64,000 nucleotides of DNA from an uncultured Lachnospiraceae bacterium. GTDB lineage: Bacteria; Bacillota; Clostridia; Lachnospirales; Lachnospiraceae. The notes beneath the pieces were generated by a model, which was not told the DNA's origin, searched no databases, and was given only the letters and a program-made list of their open reading frames with translations. Positions 6,567 to 16,095 of this stretch are shown here, in pieces. Position 1 is the first letter of the stretch; each line of letters opens with the position of its first letter. A program made the position numbers and the translations under genes. The stretch is taken from contig CANOFW010000003.1 in assembly GCA_947565425.1 (NCBI GenBank), positions 62,001-126,000 on the forward strand, in the 5' to 3' direction.

Positions 6567-6598
6567 GGTGCACTAACTTAATATTAGGAGGAAGGCAA

Positions 6599-6670
6599 AT
6601 GCGAAGCATTTTTATAAGGCCTTCCGACGATGTGGCAGGTGTCGCAAAGCGACGCGTGCCGTTACCTTAG
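6599..6670 (+). CDS. Putative 23-residue mini-ORF, repeat copy 1
   Basis: ATG five bases after GGAGGAAGG, open for 23 codons to TAG, encoding MRSIFIRPSDDVAGVAKRRV plus PLP. The Shine-Dalgarno match is as good as that of adk. However, the AUG sits in a predicted stem, and the ORF may be a by-product of a structured repeat. No similarity is recognised. It could serve as a translational coupling leader. Confidence 0.3.
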   Translation: MRSIFIRPSDDVAGVAKRRVPLP

Positions 6671-6685
6671 TTAGGAGGAAGGCAA

Positions 6686-6757
6686 ATGCGAAGCATTTTT
6701 ATAAGGCCTTCCGACGATGTGGCAGGTGTCGCAAAGCGACACGTGCCGTTACCTTAG
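6686..6757 (+). CDS. Putative 23-residue mini-ORF, repeat copy 2
   Basis: Second copy of the mini-ORF, identical except for an Arg to His change at residue 19. Its TAG lies three bases before the GGAGG of adk, so a ribosome terminating here would be placed at the adk ribosome binding site. The near-perfect conservation may only reflect a recent duplication. Confidence 0.3.
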   Translation: MRSIFIRPSDDVAGVAKRHVPLP

Positions 6758-8195: not shown

Positions 8196-8293
8196 CAATT
8201 GGCAAGCAGTAGGCGAAGCCAGAGCGTGATGCGAGGTCGTTCTGTGACGCATTGAACGCTTAGCGAGGTTCAAGTTAAACGAACAGAACTTCC
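8196..8293. repeat. Hairpin-forming intergenic repeat between map and the KOW gene
   Basis: Same family as 2537-2638. GTTCTGT (8239-8245) pairs with ACAGAAC (8283-8289), enclosing a CGCTTAGCGAGG segment. The run 8237-8258 is identical to 2599-2620. It lies in the operon orientation, in a spacer that otherwise needs only a ribosome binding site. Confidence 0.65.
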
Positions 8294-8317
8294 TTGAATA
8301 AAAACGGAGGCAATTGG

Positions 8318-8587
8318 ATGGATATTAAATTAGCAGTTTCCAGATCAGGACATGACAAAGACAGTCTTTATGTAATTATAAAGGAAGAAGCCAATCTGGT
8401 TTATTTGGCGGATGGGAAATTAAAACCCATAGAAAAGCCAAAAAAAAAGAACAGGAAACATATTCAAATTATCAAAAATCTTCCGAAAGAGATTACAGAA
8501 GTCTTTACGCAGCAGGATTTTCGGAATGAAGAAATAAAAAGAGCGATTAAGCTATATCAAAAACAAACTGGATTCAGGAGGAAGTAA
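8318..8587 (+). CDS. KOW-domain RNA-binding protein (L14e-like)
   Basis: An 89-residue basic protein between map and infA, a position where many clostridia encode a KOW-domain protein. The N-terminal 35 residues ([20 protein letters not shown]) resemble the KOW fold of archaeal/eukaryotic L14e. A lysine-rich linker ([10 protein letters not shown]) follows. The ATG at 8318 has GGAGG seven bases ahead and is preferred to an upstream in-frame TTG. A role in ribosome or RNA binding is inferred. Confidence 0.8.
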
Positions 8588-8588
8588 A

Positions 8589-8807
8589 ATGTCAAAAGCA
8601 GATGTTATAGAAGTAGAAGGAAAAGTGGTTGAGAAGTTGCCCAATGCCATGTTTCAGGTGGAGTTGGAGAATGGACATCAGATTCTAGCGCATATCAGCG
8701 GTAAACTCAGGATGAACTTTATCCGCATCCTGCCAGGGGATAAGGTGACGATTGAGATGTCTCCCTATGATTTGACAAAAGGTAGAATTATCTGGAGGGA
8801 TAAATAA
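8589..8807 (+). CDS. infA: Translation initiation factor IF-1
   Basis: OB-fold factor that occupies the ribosomal A site during initiation. It has 72 residues, the exact family length. [39 protein letters not shown] and [10 protein letters not shown] are diagnostic. It follows the KOW gene after one base. It is normally followed by rpmJ, but here a terminator and about 6 kb of unrelated genes intervene. Confidence 0.98.
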
Positions 8808-8854
8808 CAGAAGTGGCGGGGATATTCTTCAATGGAAGATACCTTTACATGAGA

Positions 8855-8898
8855 CAAAAGGGCATGTGTGCTTAAAGTGTGGCACACATGCCCTTTTG
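8855..8898 (+). terminator. Intrinsic terminator after infA
   Basis: A 17-bp perfect stem: 8855-8871 (CAAAAGGGCATGTGTGC) with 8882-8898, and a 10-base loop. The outer pairs are A/T (AAAA against TTTT), so it can act on both strands. It ends the spc-adk-map-infA transcript and separates it from the accessory block. Confidence 0.85.
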
Positions 8899-8960
8899 CT
8901 TACGGCAGTTGTTTTACAAAAAATTTTTGTCCTCATATGAAAAACTGTCCATATTTAGCA

Positions 8961-9030
8961 ATAACTAATAATGATTTGCGTGAACTCCTTATTACTGATA
9001 GTAATGTACTTTAAAATTACTAATAATAAG
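8961..9030 (+). promoter_or_regulatory. Repeat-rich candidate operator upstream of the XRE gene
   Basis: The palindrome ATTACTGATAGTAAT (8991-9005) is flanked by the direct repeats ACTAATAAT at 8964-8972 and 9019-9027. A weak promoter may be TTGCGT (8976-8981) with AGTAAT (9000-9005). This is the usual layout for an XRE repressor that controls itself. Binding is inferred, not shown. Confidence 0.4.
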
Positions 9031-9050
9031 AGAGAAACGGAGATGATGCA

Positions 9051-9383
9051 ATGACGGATTTAAATTTTCAGTTAATCGGACAAAAAATCAAAGAACGGAG
9101 AAAGTATCTTCACATTACCCAGGAAGCCATTGCAAATTACCTGGATGTAAACCCAAGCCATATATCTAATATAGAATGTGGCAGGGCCAATCCGTCTCTT
9201 ACAGTATTAGTTAAAATTGCTAACTTTTTGGAATGCAGCGTTGATTGTTTCATTAGCCATGAATATTTGTTTGACGTTGATGCCCATAAACCGGAAACTT
9301 TAGACGATAAGATCATGGAGAAGCTGAAGTACAGCACTGCAGAGAAAAAAGTTAAAATTTTACAGATGATGGATATTCTTTAA
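9051..9383 (+). CDS. XRE-family transcriptional regulator
   Basis: A 110-residue protein with an N-terminal Cro/C1-type helix-turn-helix (residues about 9-63): IGQKIKERRKYLHITQEAIA, then the recognition helix NPSHISNIECGRANPS. A short helical C-terminus follows. It starts at the ATG eight bases after CGGAG. It is the first gene of the block between infA and rpmJ and overlaps the convergent small gene by four bases. Targets are unknown; self-regulation through the upstream palindrome is plausible. Confidence 0.85.
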   Translation: MTDLNFQLIGQKIKERRKYLHITQEAIANYLDVNPSHISNIECGRANPSLTVLVKIANFLECSVDCFISHEYLFDVDAHKPETLDDKIMEKLKYSTAEKKVKILQMMDIL

Positions 9384-9628
9384 GGATATATTTTTGATAA
9401 AAATACTTTAATTACGTACTTTAGTCCTAGAAAAAAACCTTCCCGTTCTGAAATTTTTGTTATTTCATAGAGAAGGTTTTTTAATTCTTCAATTTCTTCG
9501 CTGTTCATGTTCTTTATATATTCTGTTATATATTTGTCGATTTCTTTATTGATTTCCGCATCCATTTCTATATAATCTTTTTCGTAAATTATTATCTCGT
9601 CAAATATTTTTCTCAAAAGTCTTTTCAT
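9380..9628 (-). CDS. Small helical protein, DUF6809-like
   Basis: An 82-residue acidic helical protein from the ATG at 9628, which has AAAGGAG on the minus strand. The C-terminal EREGFFLGLKYVIKVFL resembles the GFxLG...E/KxF ending of small clostridial proteins annotated DUF6809; this is by eye only. It is convergent with the XRE gene. A terminator-like hairpin for the opposite strand lies within its coding sequence. Function unknown. Confidence 0.55.
   Translation of the reverse strand: MKRLLRKIFDEIIIYEKDYIEMDAEINKEIDKYITEYIKNMNSEEIEELKNLLYEITKISEREGFFLGLKYVIKVFLSKIYP
9432..9484 (+). terminator. Terminator for the XRE gene, inside the convergent gene
   Basis: AAAAAACCTTC (9432-9442) pairs with GAAGGTTTTTT (9472-9482), with inner TGAAAT/ATTTCA pairing. 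It ends in a T-run in the plus direction about 50 bases after the XRE stop. It lies within the 3' part of the minus-strand gene, so it must also be tolerated as coding sequence. Confidence 0.55.
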
Positions 9629-9682
9629 TACAAGTTTCTCCTTTGTGTAGGCAACAGTCAAATTTCCCAGGTGCAGTGTCAT

Positions 9683-9909
9683 ATTACTTCCCCATGTTTC
9701 CCCAATATTAGATTATTCTTGCTAGTTTTGACAATAGTGGAAAATATAAGATTAGAAAAGGGGGAAGCATTCCCGGTGGACTGGCATCATAGTTTGCATC
9801 TCTGCTTCCTGCAATGGACTTTTTTAGGAATATGGAAAGGGAACAGCCAAGATATAAATACACTTTATTGCCTAAAATATTATTAATAACTAAAATATTT
9901 AATTATAAC
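9683..9909. other. AT-rich spacer with no recognised gene
   Basis: AT-rich sequence between the small minus-strand gene and the first flagellin. Short open frames lack a plausible start and composition. No clear sigma-A promoter was found for the minus-strand gene; TTGACA at about 9729 has no -10 element at proper spacing. Confidence 0.5.
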
Positions 9910-9936
9910 TAAGATTTTTAAGAAAATTACCGAAAT
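9910..9936 (+). promoter_or_regulatory. Candidate sigma-28 promoter for flagellin 1
   Basis: TAAG (9910-9913), 15 bases, then ACCGAAAT (9929-9936). Compared with TAAA-N15-GCCGATAA/T it matches 3/4 and 6/8. Its position about 95 bases before the flagellin start is right. It is weaker than the other flagellar promoters in this window. Confidence 0.45.
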
Positions 9937-9972
9937 AACATATAAGTGAACAATGAGATAAAGGATGGAGCG

Positions 9973-10004
9973 ATACGCATGGCAGATTTATCGGCCATGT
10001 GTAT
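9973..10004 (+). other. Leader hairpin of flagellin 1
   Basis: ATACGCATGGC (9973-9983) pairs with GCCATGTGTAT (9994-10004) through 11 bp including one G-U pair, with a 10-base loop. It is preceded by AAAGGATGG, which resembles a CsrA site (core GGA). It lies 26 bases before the flagellin start. FliW/CsrA control is an inference. Confidence 0.4.
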
Positions 10005-10030
10005 ATCTTAATAGTCAGGGAGGACAAAGC

Positions 10031-12004
10031 ATGCAAGTAGTTGCACATAATTTATTAGCACAGTTTACAGACAGGCAGCTGAATATTACAAATAAGAATA
10101 AGGAGAAATCCACAGAGAAGCTTTCCTCGGGATACCGTATCAACCGTTCAGCGGACGATGCGGCGGGACTGCAAATTTCTGAAAAACTACGATGGCAGAT
10201 CCGCGGGCTGGACCGTGGGGCAAAAAATATAGAAGATGGCATTGCGATGGTTCAGACAGCAGACGGTGCAATGTCAGAGATGCACAGCATATTGCAGCGT
10301 GTCAGGGAGCTGTCAATCCAGGCTTACAATGACTCAAATACGACAGAAGACCGGGAAGCTATCCAGGATGAGGTTGACCAGTCTCTGACAGAGCTTCAGC
10401 GGATAGCGGAGACGACAACATTTAATACAAAGCCGCTGTTAGGGGGAAATCCGGTTACTATAGTGAAGATTACCCCGGATCAGAAAGTAAAGGTCCGGCA
10501 GACGGAAGTGAGAAGCGTGCCGGATTGGTTATATAACAATATGGACCATGAGCTGACAGTACATGCTGGATATACGCAGGGAGGTCAGGAAAAGGAAAAT
10601 ATGTTAGTAACAAAGTCAGACAAAGATCCTACTCCAGACAAATACTATGGAGCACGGAATCCATCTCTGGAAGCACTTGGTTACCGCCATGAAAAGGAAT
10701 GGACGGATACTATAGCAGACAATCCTTCCGCCCGAATTGATTTTAGCGGGTTAATCTCGGCGTCAACGACAGCAGTGGATTTATATAATAATATATTTGA
10801 TTTAATTGGTTCTAAAATTTCATTTGGATGTGGAACCTGTAGCAGTATTTTGAATTCTATTACGTTTGGGGGAAATGAATCGGCACTGGAGATTGTAGGG
10901 TTTGATAAGACCCCGGGAGTAATGGAAGAAGTCTATGGAAATGTGAACTTGTCGGATTTAGGGTATTTTGATGCGATAAAGGAATTGCTCAACAAATATG
11001 GGGAAGATTACGACAAAGGGCAGGGTGGTTCTGCTGCGGAACAGGCAGAGGTTAAGGCTCTTGCGGAAAAAATAGCAGGCGGGCTGCGTGATGCGGTTGC
11101 AAATACATGGCAGCAGACGATGGGAGGCCACTTTGACAGAGTCATGAAACAAAATGGTAACGATTATGCGCTGTATGTATATGATTACAGGGATGCAGAT
11201 GCATTAATACACAGCGAGGATGCTGATACGGCGATTAAGACAAGCGCTACGATAACATATCTTGTAGACTCTGATATGGTCCAAAAGGGGCAGACGATGG
11301 CTGTCGTATCCCCTGTTATGATTGAATGCGGGGCATTATCACCGAATGCGATTCCGATTGATTTTCCGAATGTAACACTTTCAGCACTGGGTATTTCAGA
11401 TTATAAAATTAATAGGTATCAGGAAATCCAGACATACAGTGATTCTTATAAGCAGAAGTGGCAGGAATACTATGATACCAAACAGGTTTCGACAACAACG
11501 GTTACAGAAACGGAACGGTATATCAAAAAACCTGGAAAGGCGCCGGTATATGCAACGTACAAGACTTATGTGAATGGAGAGGAGAAACAGAATACTGTAC
11601 AGGTGCAGCCTGGCGAAGCGGCAGAATACGGTACACGTACGGTAACAAGTACTAGAATAAAAATCACCTATGATGAATCAAAAAGACCGGTGGCTCAGGC
11701 AGGAGATATCCAAAAACATTCTATCTATGATCCGGATCCGGTTGAGATGATTGATGGGGCAATCGCAAAAGTATCTGCGGCGAGATCGCGTATGGGGGCG
11801 ATACAGAACCGTTTGGAACATGCATACAAAATGAACACAAATACTTCAGAAAATACCGGGAGTGCGGAATCACGTCTGCGCGATACAGATATGGCGGATG
11901 AAATGGTAAATTATGCAAAGCACAATATCTTGCAGCAGGCGGGACAAAATATGCTTGCACAGGCAAACCAGCAGCCACAGCAGGTACTCAGCCTGTTACG
12001 GTAA
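10031..12004 (+). CDS. Large flagellin with cysteine-containing central domain
   Basis: A 657-residue flagellin, more than twice the main one. The N-terminal D0/D1 region (residues 1 to about 150; EKLSSGYRINRSADDAAGLQ) and the C-terminal D1/D0 region (about 570-657; RMGAIQNRLEHAYK, ending ANQQPQQVLSLLR) are intact, so polymerisation should be possible. The roughly 400-residue centre has no HExxH motif. It contains Cys267 and Cys270 in a CGTC motif and another Cys in MIECGALS, unusual for a secreted filament protein. The start at 10031 follows AGGGAGGAC and matches MxVxHN-type starts. It lies between infA and rpmJ, next to flagellinolysin. Confidence 0.9.
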   Translation: MQVVAHNLLAQFTDRQLNITNKNKEKSTEKLSSGYRINRSADDAAGLQISEKLRWQIRGLDRGAKNIEDGIAMVQTADGAMSEMHSILQRVRELSIQAYNDSNTTEDREAIQDEVDQSLTELQRIAETTTFNTKPLLGGNPVTIVKITPDQKVKVRQTEVRSVPDWLYNNMDHELTVHAGYTQGGQEKENMLVTKSDKDPTPDKYYGARNPSLEALGYRHEKEWTDTIADNPSARIDFSGLISASTTAVDLYNNIFDLIGSKISFGCGTCSSILNSITFGGNESALEIVGFDKTPGVMEEVYGNVNLSDLGYFDAIKELLNKYGEDYDKGQGGSAAEQAEVKALAEKIAGGLRDAVANTWQQTMGGHFDRVMKQNGNDYALYVYDYRDADALIHSEDADTAIKTSATITYLVDSDMVQKGQTMAVVSPVMIECGALSPNAIPIDFPNVTLSALGISDYKINRYQEIQTYSDSYKQKWQEYYDTKQVSTTTVTETERYIKKPGKAPVYATYKTYVNGEEKQNTVQVQPGEAAEYGTRTVTSTRIKITYDESKRPVAQAGDIQKHSIYDPDPVEMIDGAIAKVSAARSRMGAIQNRLEHAYKMNTNTSENTGSAESRLRDTDMADEMVNYAKHNILQQAGQNMLAQANQQPQQVLSLLR

Positions 12005-12013
12005 GAGAAACAT

Positions 12014-12040
12014 TAAGTTTTGCCATGGATAAGCCGATAA
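12014..12040 (+). promoter_or_regulatory. Sigma-28 promoter for zinc-ribbon/flagellinolysin pair
   Basis: TAAG (12014-12017), 15 bases, then GCCGATAA (12033-12040), a perfect -10 element for the flagellar sigma factor. It lies 40 bases before the zinc-ribbon ATG and nine bases after the flagellin 1 stop. The downstream flagellinolysin is probably on the same transcript. Confidence 0.8.
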
Positions 12041-12079
12041 ATAACAAAATATATCTATTTGGGCATAGGAGGAATCGCT

Positions 12080-12463
12080 ATGGGAGACATAATTACATTT
12101 TCCTGTAAAAAGTGTGGTTACGAGATGAAAGCTCCAGTCGGGGTTGGCCTTGCAAGCTTTAATCCAACTGTAATTGGGGAGCTTTTGCATGGTGAGGAAC
12201 GGGAAGAATGGAAAACTCTCTCAGATAAAGGCGTACTTGAGCGGTGTTTGGGAGAACAGGTAATGGCAAGCTGCGAGCATTGCGGCGGTTTGAGCAATAT
12301 ATACTGTGTCAGCGGGCAGACAGCGGAGCGTAAGTATTTGTGGGGGAACAAATGTCCCCAATGCGGCAGGGAGCTTACACTGCTGAAGGATATCCAGGCA
12401 ATTACCTGTCCTGCATGTGCTGGCAGCCTGCTTGATGCGAAGCGGACTGGTCTCTGGGATTAG
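12080..12463 (+). CDS. Zinc-ribbon protein in the flagellin block
   Basis: A 127-residue cytosolic protein with four CxxC pairs: CKKC near the N-terminus, CEHC in the middle, then CPQC and CPAC. This suggests two zinc ribbons. No signal peptide or membrane segment is seen, and no enzymatic domain is recognised. ATG 12080 has TAGGAGGAA ahead; the open frame extends upstream without a ribosome binding site. It is transcribed from a sigma-28-type promoter and sits between two unusual flagellins. A role with the adjacent zinc peptidase or as a regulator is speculation. Confidence 0.75.
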   Translation: MGDIITFSCKKCGYEMKAPVGVGLASFNPTVIGELLHGEEREEWKTLSDKGVLERCLGEQVMASCEHCGGLSNIYCVSGQTAERKYLWGNKCPQCGRELTLLKDIQAITCPACAGSLLDAKRTGLWD

Positions 12464-12544
12464 GGAAATGTCTAAGCCGGGTTTGTCCGAGTTGGTTTGT
12501 TAGAGGTTCAGGGAAGAATATGACTTTTCATGGAGGAAGAATGT

Positions 12545-14494
12545 ATGATTGTTAATCATAATATGTCATCAACGAATGCATCACGTATGCTCGGACAGGT
12601 CGTCGTGAATGTCGGAGATACAGCGGAGAAGCTGTCTTCGGGACATCGAATCAACCGTTCGGCGGACGATGCGGCAGGACTTTCTATTTCGGAGAAGCTG
12701 CGCTGGCAGGTAAGGGGGCTTAACCGTGCTTCCCGCAATGCGCAGGATGGAATTTCCTTTATTCAGACAGCGGAGGGTGCGCTTGATGAAATACATAGTC
12801 TTTTGCAGCGCGCAAGGGAGCTCAGTGTGCAGGCTGCAAATGATACGAATGAGGTCGAGGACAGGGAAGCACTTGCCAAAGAAATTGAAGCATTAGGCAA
12901 GGAAGTTGACCGCATTGCGAAGGATACGGAGTTTAATACGCTCAAAATTTTTGACTCTTCCGATGCTGTCTCATCTTCCAGGGTCGGGCCCGAGAGAGTT
13001 TCTGCCAGAGGAAATGATGCACCCATGGTTACGCTGGATGGAACGGATATCATGCAGTACGGTATAGAGAATATCCAGGATGCAATAAACACAGCAAAAG
13101 CGGCGGGCAAAGTTTTTACCGTAGGTGGGTTAGAAAAGTTTGGGCAGGATTTAAAGGATACATATCTTCCAAAGCTTCTCGGTCGGATTCAGAGTGCGTT
13201 TAATGATTCCGCAACACCTACTGTGTCAGGTATGAAAATAGGGCTTAAGCTTTATCATGCAAACAACAGTACGTTAGCATATGTAAGCTCAAACGGCGTA
13301 GGGTTTGAACTTGGTGTCAATCTAAATTATCTGGCTGAAAATGGCGGCAATATTAATATGACGGATGATTTGGCGACGACGATTGCACATGAGATGATGC
13401 ATGCCGTCATGTTTGATGTTACAACGAATGGAATGTTGGGGTCCGGCGGCGGTGACAGTTTCCCTTCCTGGTTTGTGGAAGGCGTGGCGCAGTCAGTGGG
13501 CGGTGCTATGAATTACCTGGCGCTTATGCCATCTGTTAATGATGCGGATGCCATGAAGAAATGGATGTCCCAGCTGACAAATACATCGGACAGCTATAAC
13601 GCCTATGCACAGGGGTACCTGGCGAGTATGTATCTTGGATATCAGGCGGGGGGCAAGAATGTAAGCGCTTCTGCGATTGCGGATGGTCTCGATACCATTT
13701 TAAAAGATATATCTGACGGATATTCCCTTGGCCAGGCGATAAGCAGGCATACGAGTTATGCGGATTTGGCAGATTTTGAGAGGAATTTTGCAAGCGACGA
13801 AGGCGTGAAATTTATCAAGGACTTAATGGCGGCCACTGGATCAGGAGCTGGTTCCATAGTTTCGCCGAATGGACTGTCAGGCAGCAAGGCTTCGCTTTTG
13901 CAGGGCGGCGGTACGAGCAATTTCTTTGAACTGGATCTGGATCATAATTTTGTTACGAATAACATGGGCGGCAAGAATCCTTATTCTGGCGGCGGTGCAA
14001 CCACAACGAGCGGTACAGACCGCAATGGGAATAAGAATCCAGATGCACAGCCGACGTGGGGTTCCAAACTGGGGAACACTGGCGGGAAGGGAAGCGTAGC
14101 CAGGAATCTCAAGCTTCAGATTGGATCTTTGAGCGGACAGGGTGTCCAGCTGAATTGTTACAAACTGTCACAGCTTGATTTGGGTATCAATAATGTCAAT
14201 GTAGACAGTTATGGGAATGCTGGATTGGCAATCAATAGCTTTGATAACGCCATTAGTATTGTTTCGGACATGCGCTCTTATTATGGTGCAATACAGAACA
14301 GGCTGGAACATACGATTGCCAATCTTGATAATACATCTGAGAATATAGCGTCGGCGGAATCGAAGCTGCGTGATACGGACATGGCGGAAACGATGGTTGC
14401 GTATTCCAAGGAAAATATCCTTATGCAGACTGGACAGACTGTTCTGGCACAGGCGAACCATTCCAAGGACGGCATTTTAAGTTTGTTGCAGTAA
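12545..14494 (+). CDS. Flagellinolysin: flagellin with a metallopeptidase domain
   Basis: A 649-residue flagellin. N-terminal D0/D1 (about 1-150; EKLSSGHRINRSADDAAGLS) and C-terminal D1/D0 (about 550-649; YGAIQNRLEHTIANLDN, SESKLRDTDMAE-like region, end SLLQ) are intact. The variable centre is a zinc peptidase: His282-Glu283-x-x-His286 in TTIAHEMMHAVM, and a second Glu at 312 in SWFVEGVAQSVGG, the HExxH...E pattern of gluzincins. This matches the known flagellinolysin family, in which active peptidase domains decorate the filament. After about residue 450 a Gly/Asn-rich linker precedes the C-terminal helix. ATG 12545 follows GGAGGA; an in-frame ATG at 12530 precedes that ribosome binding site and is rejected. 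Confidence 0.92.
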   Translation: MIVNHNMSSTNASRMLGQVVVNVGDTAEKLSSGHRINRSADDAAGLSISEKLRWQVRGLNRASRNAQDGISFIQTAEGALDEIHSLLQRARELSVQAANDTNEVEDREALAKEIEALGKEVDRIAKDTEFNTLKIFDSSDAVSSSRVGPERVSARGNDAPMVTLDGTDIMQYGIENIQDAINTAKAAGKVFTVGGLEKFGQDLKDTYLPKLLGRIQSAFNDSATPTVSGMKIGLKLYHANNSTLAYVSSNGVGFELGVNLNYLAENGGNINMTDDLATTIAHEMMHAVMFDVTTNGMLGSGGGDSFPSWFVEGVAQSVGGAMNYLALMPSVNDADAMKKWMSQLTNTSDSYNAYAQGYLASMYLGYQAGGKNVSASAIADGLDTILKDISDGYSLGQAISRHTSYADLADFERNFASDEGVKFIKDLMAATGSGAGSIVSPNGLSGSKASLLQGGGTSNFFELDLDHNFVTNNMGGKNPYSGGGATTTSGTDRNGNKNPDAQPTWGSKLGNTGGKGSVARNLKLQIGSLSGQGVQLNCYKLSQLDLGINNVNVDSYGNAGLAINSFDNAISIVSDMRSYYGAIQNRLEHTIANLDNTSENIASAESKLRDTDMAETMVAYSKENILMQTGQTVLAQANHSKDGILSLLQ

Positions 14495-14532
14495 CTATGG
14501 GCAGGGAAAAGAACGCAAAGTCATTAATGGCA

Positions 14533-14580
14533 ATACAGGCATTGAAAAATAAGGGGTTTTTCAATGCCTGTATATTATTT
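14533..14580 (+). terminator. Terminator after flagellinolysin
   Basis: 17-bp perfect stem: 14533-14549 (ATACAGGCATTGAAAAA) with 14557-14573, a 7-base loop, then ATTATTT. It ends the sigma-28 transcript before the alpha operon promoter. Confidence 0.85.
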
Positions 14581-14721
14581 AAGAATAAATGTGCAGTGGC
14601 AGCAAGTTGCAAAAAACGAAGTAACTCAAGGGGGTAATCTATTGAGAAATAAGTGGCGGTATAATACAATTTCATTTATATTATTAAGCCCATATAAAAC
14701 CGGAATAGGAGATAAATTACT

Positions 14722-14757
14722 ATGAAACCGTTATTTTATAGATATGATTTCGCATGA
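14722..14757 (+). other. Possible 11-codon leader ORF upstream of rpmJ
   Basis: ATG at 14722 with AGGAGA nine bases ahead, encoding MKPLFYRYDFA then TGA. It lies upstream of the rpmJ promoter, so it would belong to a different transcript. The rest of 14581-14797 shows no gene. The TATAAT at 14660 has no -35 element at suitable spacing. Confidence 0.2.
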
Positions 14758-14797
14758 ATGAGCGAAAACGGCGATTTCGGGAAAATGAAAAAAACCC

Positions 14798-14826
14798 TTG
14801 ATTTTTCAAGGGTTAGATGGTATACT
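14798..14826 (+). promoter_or_regulatory. Sigma-A promoter of the alpha operon
   Basis: TTGATT (14798-14803), 17 bases, TATACT (14821-14826): 4/6 and 5/6 matches at ideal spacing, about 100 bases before rpmJ. An inverted repeat (AACCCTTGA 14793-14801, TCAAGGGTT 14806-14814) overlaps the -35 element. A perfect palindrome TTTTGCGCGCAAAA (14856-14869) lies in the leader. It frees the alpha operon from the blocked spc transcript. Confidence 0.75.
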
Positions 14827-14926
14827 GTTAGCTGAATGCTTTTGGAGCATAGTATTTTTGCGCGCAAAATTGCGTAAAAGTCAGTTTAGAAAGTCCCTTT
14901 GGACAGAGCAGAAAGGAGGAAGTGCT

Positions 14927-15040
14927 GTGAAGGTAAGATCATCAGTAAAACCTATTTGCGAAAAGTGCAAGATTATCAAGAGAAAAGGAAGCATCCGGGT
15001 AATCTGCGAGAATCCGAAACACAAACAGAGACAGGGGTGA
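14927..15040 (+). CDS. rpmJ: 50S ribosomal protein L36
   Basis: Smallest ribosomal protein, 37 residues, bound in 23S rRNA near the L16 site. It is the zinc-binding form, with CEKC, a further Cys in VICENP, and a His in KHKQRQG. It starts at a GTG six bases after AAAGGAGGA; the frame is open upstream but unrelated. It is separated from infA by about 6 kb, which is unusual. Confidence 0.96.
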
Positions 15041-15163
15041 CCGGAAACACTTAACGAACACTAGCATTTATGCGAAGTGTGAGTTTAGTGTGAGGTCGTT
15101 CTGTGCGCTTAGCGAAAACAAGCTGACAAGCGTAGTTTGAGGTTAGCAAACAGAACTTCCTTA
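15041..15163. repeat. Hairpin-forming intergenic repeat between rpmJ and rpsM
   Basis: Copy of the ribosomal-spacer repeat. GTTCTGT (15098-15104) pairs with ACAGAAC (15150-15156), enclosing CGCTTAGCGAAAACAAGCTG. The left part, with CACTTAACGAACACT, repeats the CACTTAACGAA seen at 2551. Confidence 0.65.
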
Positions 15164-15459: not shown

Positions 15460-15828
15460 ATGGCTCGTATTGCAGGTGTAGATTTACCAAGAGAAAAACG
15501 TGTTGAGATTGGGTTGACTTATATTTACGGCATCGGAAGAGCTAGCTCAAACCGCATTCTTGCCGAGGCAAAAGTAAACCCTGATACTCGTGTCAGAGAC
15601 TTAACTGACGAAGAAGTAAAGAGAATTAGCGAAGTGATTGACCAGACTCAGACCGTAGAAGGTGATTTGAGAAGAGAAATCGCTTTAAATATTAAGAGAT
15701 TACAGGAAATCGGATGTTATCGTGGAATCCGTCATAGAAAAGGACTTCCGGTTCGTGGACAGAAGACAAAAACAAATGCAAGAACCAGAAAAGGTCCTAA
15801 GAGAACTGTTGCTAATAAGAAAAAGTAG
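15460..15828 (+). CDS. rpsM: 30S ribosomal protein S13
   Basis: Small-subunit head protein contacting P-site tRNA. It has 122 residues. [35 protein letters not shown] and [20 protein letters not shown] are the family signatures. The start follows TGGAGGTG. It is the second gene of the alpha operon. Confidence 0.98.
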
Positions 15829-16095
15829 AGCACTTAGCGAAAGCAAGCTGAAAAGCGCAGCTTGAGATTAGTGCGAACTTTGTTACCGAGACTTAGCGGT
15901 GGCGAGCTGGTAGGCGAAGACAGCGTGTTAGTCGAGCGTAACTACCTATTAAAAGCTTAGCGAAAGCAAGCTGAAAAGCGCAGCTTGAGATTAGTGCGAA
16001 CTTTGTTACCGAGACTTAGCGGTGGCGAGCTAGCAGGCGAAGACAGCGTGTTAGTCGAGCGTAACTACCTTGTAAAAGTTTAGCGAACAGAACAA
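15829..16095. repeat. Tandem 123-bp repeat between rpsM and rpsK
   Basis: Two head-to-tail copies of about 123 bp (15833-15955 and 15956-16078) with only a few differences, then a partial third start (TTAGCGAACAGAAC). Each contains AAGCTG/CAGCTT and GTTAC/GTAAC arms. The unit includes the core of the ribosomal-spacer repeat plus a second module (CTTAGCGGTGGCGAGCT). All frames hit stops, so it is not coding. Confidence 0.85.

Follow-up and report, generated by a model that had tools for sequence, protein, structure and literature searches.

Gene order in the S10-spc-alpha cluster of ribosomal protein genes is a textbook example of conservation. In the window analysed here, a 64,000-nt stretch from an uncultured Lachnospiraceae bacterium (GenBank assembly GCA_947565425.1, contig CANOFW010000003.1, positions 62,001 to 126,000 of the forward strand), infA and rpmJ stand 6,119 nt apart, and the DNA between them probably carries a horizontally acquired cassette of a flagellin, a zinc-ribbon protein and a flagellinolysin-like flagellin, seated in an insulated seam of the ribosomal operon. 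Only one of 29 genomes of the window's genus has the protease core and zinc-ribbon gene, which recur together in other genera, and the interval is compact in the sister species G011 (269 nt) and in G004 (290 nt), all of which supports the view of a preliminary description of this DNA that the block is an insertion.

The infA-rpmJ interval and its contents

The break is real, with infA (8589..8807, plus strand, as are all features below unless stated; TIGR00008, 126.9 bits), the final gene of the upstream transcription unit, and rpmJ (14927..15040; TIGR01022, 83 bits) both called above curated cut-offs in the profile search. The genes and repeats reported between them were also recovered, the genes with Pfam and open reading frame (ORF) evidence. 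They comprise an XRE-type (HTH_3) regulator of 110 amino acids (aa) (9051..9383; PF01381, 49.7 bits), a convergent 100-aa ORF on the minus strand (9380..9682) with sub-threshold family matches only, flagellin 1 (10031..12004; PF00669/PF00700), a 127-aa zinc-ribbon companion with CxxC pairs and a C-terminal WD (12080..12463; neighbourhood, alignment and profile search), and flagellin 2 (12545..14494). The start of flagellin 1 was placed at 10031 from a ribosome-site-like GGGAGG just upstream and the start of the flagellin domain, and its variable core of ~420 aa is present in at least four of 397 family genomes. The description of two large flagellins as a proteolytic block is right as to the two flagellins, but the HExxH motif lies in flagellin 2 only and is absent from flagellin 1.

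A perfect 17-bp inverted repeat does stand on either side of the block. The stem-loop 3' of infA (8855..8898; arms 8855-8871 and 8882-8898, 17 nt, 100% complementary) came from the inverted-repeat search and is terminator-like with only a short T run; its loop of 10 nt exceeds the 8-nt limit of the terminator scan, which did not list it. The right stem-loop (14533..14573; arms 14533-14549 and 14557-14573, 17 nt, 100% complementary) was found by both scans and has a T-rich tail, a terminator-like end to the cassette. Further downstream, the right flank (14779..14926) is common to compact siblings, with 148 nt at 90% identity to G004 and 134 nt at 89% to G011.

Turnover and expression signals at the junction

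Both genes were sought in 61 genomes, one per species and many of them metagenome assemblies, comprising 29 of the genus and 32 others. Among the members of the genus are Petralouisia muris (G014), Eubacterium sp. 14-2 (G024), and Lachnospiraceae bacterium 3-1 (G023) and A2 (G013), which we take to be mouse-gut isolates. Within the genus, infA and rpmJ lie on one contig in 21 of the 29 genomes and on different contigs in four (G010, G017, G018 and G025); infA alone was found in three (G001, G009 and G016) and neither gene in one (G007). The gap exceeds 800 nt in 14 of the 21 linked genomes (820 to 12,573 nt, with varied cargo) and is compact, at 143 to 297 nt, in the other seven, and among the others 29 of 32 genomes have the pair linked, with a gap of at most 446 nt in all 29. 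Synteny across Lachnospiraceae thus does reveal relatives without the block, the sister species among them, as an insertion predicts; the notion of a one-off event falls, since most genus members with the pair linked have different cargo at this same place.

A small conserved gene 5' of infA (8318..8587), presumably encoding a KOW-type protein and without a Pfam match, served as the query with which the locus was collected from named genomes, the best 80 of 186 loci being kept. Across 23 adjacent gene pairs from rplP to rplQ in these 80 loci and the window, no pair but infA|rpmJ had a spacing above 652 nt, in loci holding at most 10 kb of flank, such that any larger insert at any junction appears as a missing pair (as for G014 and G022). 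This gap exceeded 800 nt in 13 of 22 linked loci of the genus and its sister clade (L055-L084 and the window) and in none of the 42 linked loci outside them (maximum 361, median 78). A 12-gene tree places G011 (L055) as the window's sister species with support of 1.0, two deep nodes having support of 0.0 and 0.63; G004, with only three of the 12 genes usable, is off the tree, as is L057, which had too few genes. Parsimony over 34 tips with 11 hand-assigned cargo states, leaving out L056, whose contig ends in the gap, required at least 12 changes. Cargo turnover at this one of 23 junctions is far above that of the neighbouring intervals, the mark of a hotspot.

The cargo in the siblings, for which Pfam scans covered 30 chosen gap proteins, includes sigma factors bearing Sigma70 regions 2 and 4 (nine genomes in one similarity cluster), a polysaccharide deacetylase whose choline-binding repeats are weak (six genomes in the cluster, one protein scanned), Big_2 surface proteins, proteins with BspA-type repeats, G5, MBOAT and AlgX proteins, a sortase adjoining a 2,473-aa protein, type I methylase and specificity genes, DUF3781 and a penicillinase-repressor-type regulator. 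In G019 (L020 2607-6192) flagellin genes lie in pieces within the gap, after a shortened sigma-factor gene, and two sister-clade loci hold other genes with functions named by eye only. Chorismate synthase stands 3' of infA in G018, as does a 78% identical protein in G001, and secA stands 5' of rpmJ in G010; infA and rpmJ appear to be fully separated in G010 and G018.

Six siblings have a tyrosine recombinase of ~190 aa in their gap: G014 (split), G022, G024 and G025 and, in broken form, G017 and G028. The recombinase gene is boxed by inverted sites in the gaps of L018 (3871-4690), L023 (3542-4337), L025 (4426-5256) and L028 (3995-4962), being split or broken in L018 and L028, and like boxed modules lie beside flagellin genes at L002 2375-3147 (the window's own genome), L049 233-997 and L051 2411-3178. 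These modules span 765-968 nt, the gap sites have the form ATGTAACCTTT-7 nt-AAAGGTTACAT with variants elsewhere, and flagellin or surface-protein genes adjoin. Such a module resembles a self-contained switch that would drive phase variation by DNA inversion. In the window block, recombinase and site searches found neither a recombinase nor such inverted sites.

A promoter of the form TTGnnn-17-TGnTATAAT with a score of at least 10 is present 5' of rpmJ in 17/17 linked loci of the genus, 5/5 of the sister clade and 23/42 outside, compact loci included, compared with 4% (genus) and 1% (outside) in shuffle controls; 13 of the 19 outside loci scoring below 10 have a gap of less than 70 nt. The window's copy reads TTGATT-17-TATACT with a TG extension (14798..14826), and here, as in L057 and L065, the scan's top match was at another site and the conserved promoter was seen by eye. 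Since the window region shows no excess of promoter-like sites (19, against 19.2 in shuffles), support for the rpmJ promoter comes from its conservation in relatives. The predicted promoter is older than the insert, because compact relatives carry the same one, and the alpha-side transcript is thereby predicted to have had its own start before the insert. The separate promoter for the downstream alpha operon in the preliminary description accordingly survives as a conserved site, but not in its supposed role of compensating for the break. An invariant TTTTGGAG block follows soon after the promoter in the window's rpmJ leader (14833-14926) and at the matching position in 23 further loci. A structured leader RNA was considered and dropped: the sequence is conserved, but only one of four predicted pairs is compensatory, and across 8 sources Rfam returned 0 matches.

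At the other end of the interval, a stricter scan found a terminator-like stem 3' of infA in 16/26 genus loci versus 5/49 outside and 10/100 control windows taken after other genes in the genus, and a looser scan gave 20/26 versus 6/49, with 28/100 controls. The stem GGGTATAAAA...TTTTATACCC and its close variants are common to distant members of the genus. That infA usually ends in a terminator-like stem in this genus is only suggestive. The junction would be an insulated seam, in which the stem ends the infA unit and the old promoter starts the rpmJ transcript, and DNA between the two genes would not have to interrupt ribosomal gene expression; we infer transcriptional insulation from these predicted signals.

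Elsewhere in the window, an intergenic repeat family CTTAGCGAAAACAAGCTG...GTTCTGTG lies in gaps between ribosomal genes (2539-2628, 8211-8295, 15036-15163 and 15819-16093), among them a tandem pair of 123-nt copies at 15833-16078. Between secY and adk, 6584-6757 holds a tandem pair of 87-nt copies that are 99% identical.

The protease flagellin and the zinc-ribbon gene

Flagellin 2 has the flagellin N- and C-terminal helical domains (PF00669, 137.3 bits; PF00700, 78.9 bits) and, in HEMMH at residue 282 (counted from 12545), the HExxH motif; a downstream WFVEGVA supplies the third zinc-ligand Glu and an Ala three residues on, the same residues as in PMC5595980. NF033876 matched over positions 2-384 of its 384 with 174.6 bits and, because this is under the curated cut-off of 205, the protein is called flagellinolysin-like. 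It is probably protein-cutting, and would leave via the flagellar channel, join the filament and cut extracellular protein; the flagellinolysin of C. haemolyticum is, in the available part of PMC5595980, exported by the flagellar route and built into the filament. One of the 29 genus genomes has the protease core, as do at least 22 of the 397 genomes sampled from the family, with a best match in another genus of 53%; the nearest relative, in G116 of another genus, shows 52% identity across almost the full protein. The core and zinc-ribbon searches scored four (flagellin 1 core), four (protease core) and 11 (zinc-ribbon) first-look candidates per genome, and the counts are lower bounds. A solved-structure search with the protease core gave one chance hit only, and a 35% full-length match in G022 was set aside, its translation having no HExxH. 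A sigma-28 scan says little of the block flagellins, whose best sites matched 8 and 7 of 11 positions; for the flagellin at window 53606 the figure was 10 of 11, and for others 7 to 10.

Among 24 loci around core-bearing genes, the window included, seven have a zinc-ribbon gene directly upstream, and the seven proteins share an invariant M-G, G-x-G, C65, C95, C-P-x-C and a W-D end; in G116 the homologous gene (31%, 2.7e-20) precedes the protease flagellin. A profile built from these seven and run over the same 397 genomes found at least 12 further matches at E <=1e-10, and nothing at E 0.001 in the 28 siblings. In eight of the 12, a protease-core gene on the same strand is no more than about 200 nt away, with the zinc-ribbon gene upstream in G149 and downstream in G083, G159, G334, G352, G357, G389 and G421 (the side-by-side arrangement was directly seen in G083, G334, G352 and G357); of the other four, G292 is cut by a contig end and G099, G033 and G377 lie elsewhere. 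The zinc-ribbon gene hence adjoins the core in 15 of 22 core-bearing genomes, seven of which built the profile. Damaged copies occur, with a frame without HExxH in G334, stops in both genes in G389 and a flagellin in two pieces in G083. Both G244 and G408 have the window's order of flagellin, zinc-ribbon gene and protease flagellin, their first flagellin core being unrelated to that of flagellin 1 at the search sensitivity used.

Because the zinc-ribbon gene adjoins the core in both orders, the arrangement argues for a functional link between the zinc-ribbon protein and the protease flagellin. The protein itself showed only generic zinc-ribbon similarity, with structure-search hits at E 0.006 or worse. 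It would most likely be a cytoplasmic helper for folding, zinc loading or export and less likely a regulator, and as a dedicated partner in the cytoplasm it would either hold the protease inactive or assist in exporting it. More tentatively, and with rather less confidence than we place in the acquisition itself, the zinc-ribbon protein may be dedicated to holding the protease metal-free or unfolded before export, or to controlling its expression, in a three-gene set that moves between Lachnospiraceae genera as one piece, with the seam that separates the spc and alpha transcripts in this genus a slot for exchange of surface-protein genes. A count of the term 'zinc ribbon' gave 0 for the main texts of PMC5595980 and PMC7643111, the scope of the count being those texts and not the 2017 paper's supplementary neighbour figure. 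Literature searches on the locus, diluted by look-alike words, and on flagellin with zinc ribbon returned nothing on the junction or gene pair beyond PMC8046335.

Origin of the cassette and known systems

By gene order the block is a local gain, because the nearest sibling species, G011, is compact. The cassette, with the regulator upstream, would have been acquired from outside the genus after the lineage split from the sequenced siblings, at a seam where unrelated cargo, much of it coding for surface proteins, would have come and gone repeatedly. We infer transfer by homologous recombination in the conserved flanking genes or by an unscarred illegitimate event. The clean junction that the preliminary description looked for in relatives is found in part: the right edge is clear, homology to siblings resuming at about window 14779, but the left edge is not placeable, as the ~130 nt 3' of infA do not align even among compact siblings.

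Beyond this unplaced left edge, several observations weigh against acquisition of an insulated, functionally linked cassette. No target duplication or edge repeat was seen at the block, and the best protease relative, with just about 52% identity along its length, points to no donor. Codon third-position GC content (GC3) of the block does not stand apart from that of its neighbours, and foreign base composition was discarded as a sign of transfer, GC3 being uninformative. Seven of the 22 core-bearing genomes have no zinc-ribbon neighbour (G132, G144, on a short contig, G327, G329, G344, G353 and G431), and some zinc-ribbon relatives lie elsewhere (G099, G033 and G377). The sigma-28 scan found no convincing promoter 5' of either flagellin, expression of which is a prediction. 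The terminator scan is weak, given the looser setting's rate in control windows and a stricter setting that missed the window's own stem, and the looser setting found no stem in six of 26 loci (L067, L071, L072, L073, L075 and L080, of which L073, L075 and L080 are compact).

Other origins were considered. A fragmented genome (3.36 Mb in 65 contigs) could in principle bring two distant pieces together between infA and rpmJ, but such an assembly join is unlikely, indeed scarcely credible, because the block is well inside a contig of 203,483 bp and inserts at infA|rpmJ also occur in long contigs of other assemblies (0.75 Mb in Lachnospiraceae bacterium 3-1, 2.2 Mb in Eubacterium sp. 14-2 and 4.2 Mb in G028); moreover, the right flank runs into sequence 89-90% identical to siblings. 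It is improbable that the genus ancestor already had the cassette and nearly all descendants lost it. The flagellin genes of G019 do lie in the same gap, and their N-domain is the best match to flagellin 1 in another genus member (63%, 177 bits), but that match is barely above a paralog in the window's own genome (172.7 bits), G019 lacks both the protease core and the zinc-ribbon gene, and its gap opens with a shortened sigma-factor gene. The outgroups are also compact, and the core and zinc-ribbon gene, at one of 29 genus genomes, are far from being shared by all relatives, the pattern that an ancestral block would leave.

We likewise give little credence to a site-specific mobile element that targets infA|rpmJ and has the siblings' tyrosine recombinase, present or broken in six gaps, as its integrase. 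Against it, inverted sites of its own enclose the recombinase in four gap loci (about 800-970 nt across), similar modules stand beside flagellin genes elsewhere and resemble an inversion switch rather than an integrase, and the searches found neither recombinase nor site in the window block. In line with the preliminary description, profile, repeat and recombinase searches found no integrase or transposase in the block, nor were attachment repeats seen. A merely insertion-tolerant junction, with no cassette and the zinc-ribbon gene a common small gene nearby by chance, is about as hard to credit; it would accommodate the very mixed cargo and the zinc-ribbon relatives in other settings (G099, G033 and G377), but not the eight of 12 strong non-profile matches that adjoin a protease-core gene on the same strand and in both orders.

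In this one genus, a junction of a conserved cluster behaves like a slot for exchanging genes, probably because an old promoter and a terminator insulate it transcriptionally, an explanation open to direct test. The zinc-ribbon gene is a candidate helper for protease-bearing flagella, whose pre-export protease control is posed as an open question in the available parts of PMC5595980 and PMC7643111.

The flagellinolysin family, as presented in those same parts, resembles flagellin 2 in that flagellin ends enclose a gluzincin core, which carries HExxH and, further downstream, a zinc-ligand Glu followed three residues on by Ala, and resembles the cassette in its scattered, transfer-like distribution; the flagellinolysin of H. 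gracilis also lies outside flagellar gene clusters, as in the window. Flagellin 2 differs in its NF033876 score below the cut-off, its location in the ribosomal superoperon and its adjoining zinc-ribbon gene. Clostridial flagellar switches (RecV; PMC5386303, from the portion available) resemble the sibling cargo only, in combining a site-specific recombinase with invertible DNA near flagellar genes; unlike them, the siblings' recombinase gene lies inside the inverted pair, and the window block has no such module. A study of 204 genomes (103 Gammaproteobacteria and 80 Bacilli), which uses E. coli naming with rpmJ in spc, found, so far as its accessible text goes, all operon pairs affected except spc-alpha. 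As there, small gene groups are inserted in the cluster with full separation in some lineages, the counterparts here apparently being G010 and G018, with rpmJ not found in G001; unlike there, with its supplementary event list outside the comparison, the break lies one gene upstream of the spc-alpha boundary, at infA|rpmJ, and recurs within one genus. Closest in kind are the core-gene-flanked hotspots of PMC5635113, many of them, in the part available, without recognisable mobile elements: cargo turns over rapidly between fixed core genes, as it does here, except that those hotspots were studied within species and this one extends across species, inside a ribosomal-protein cluster.

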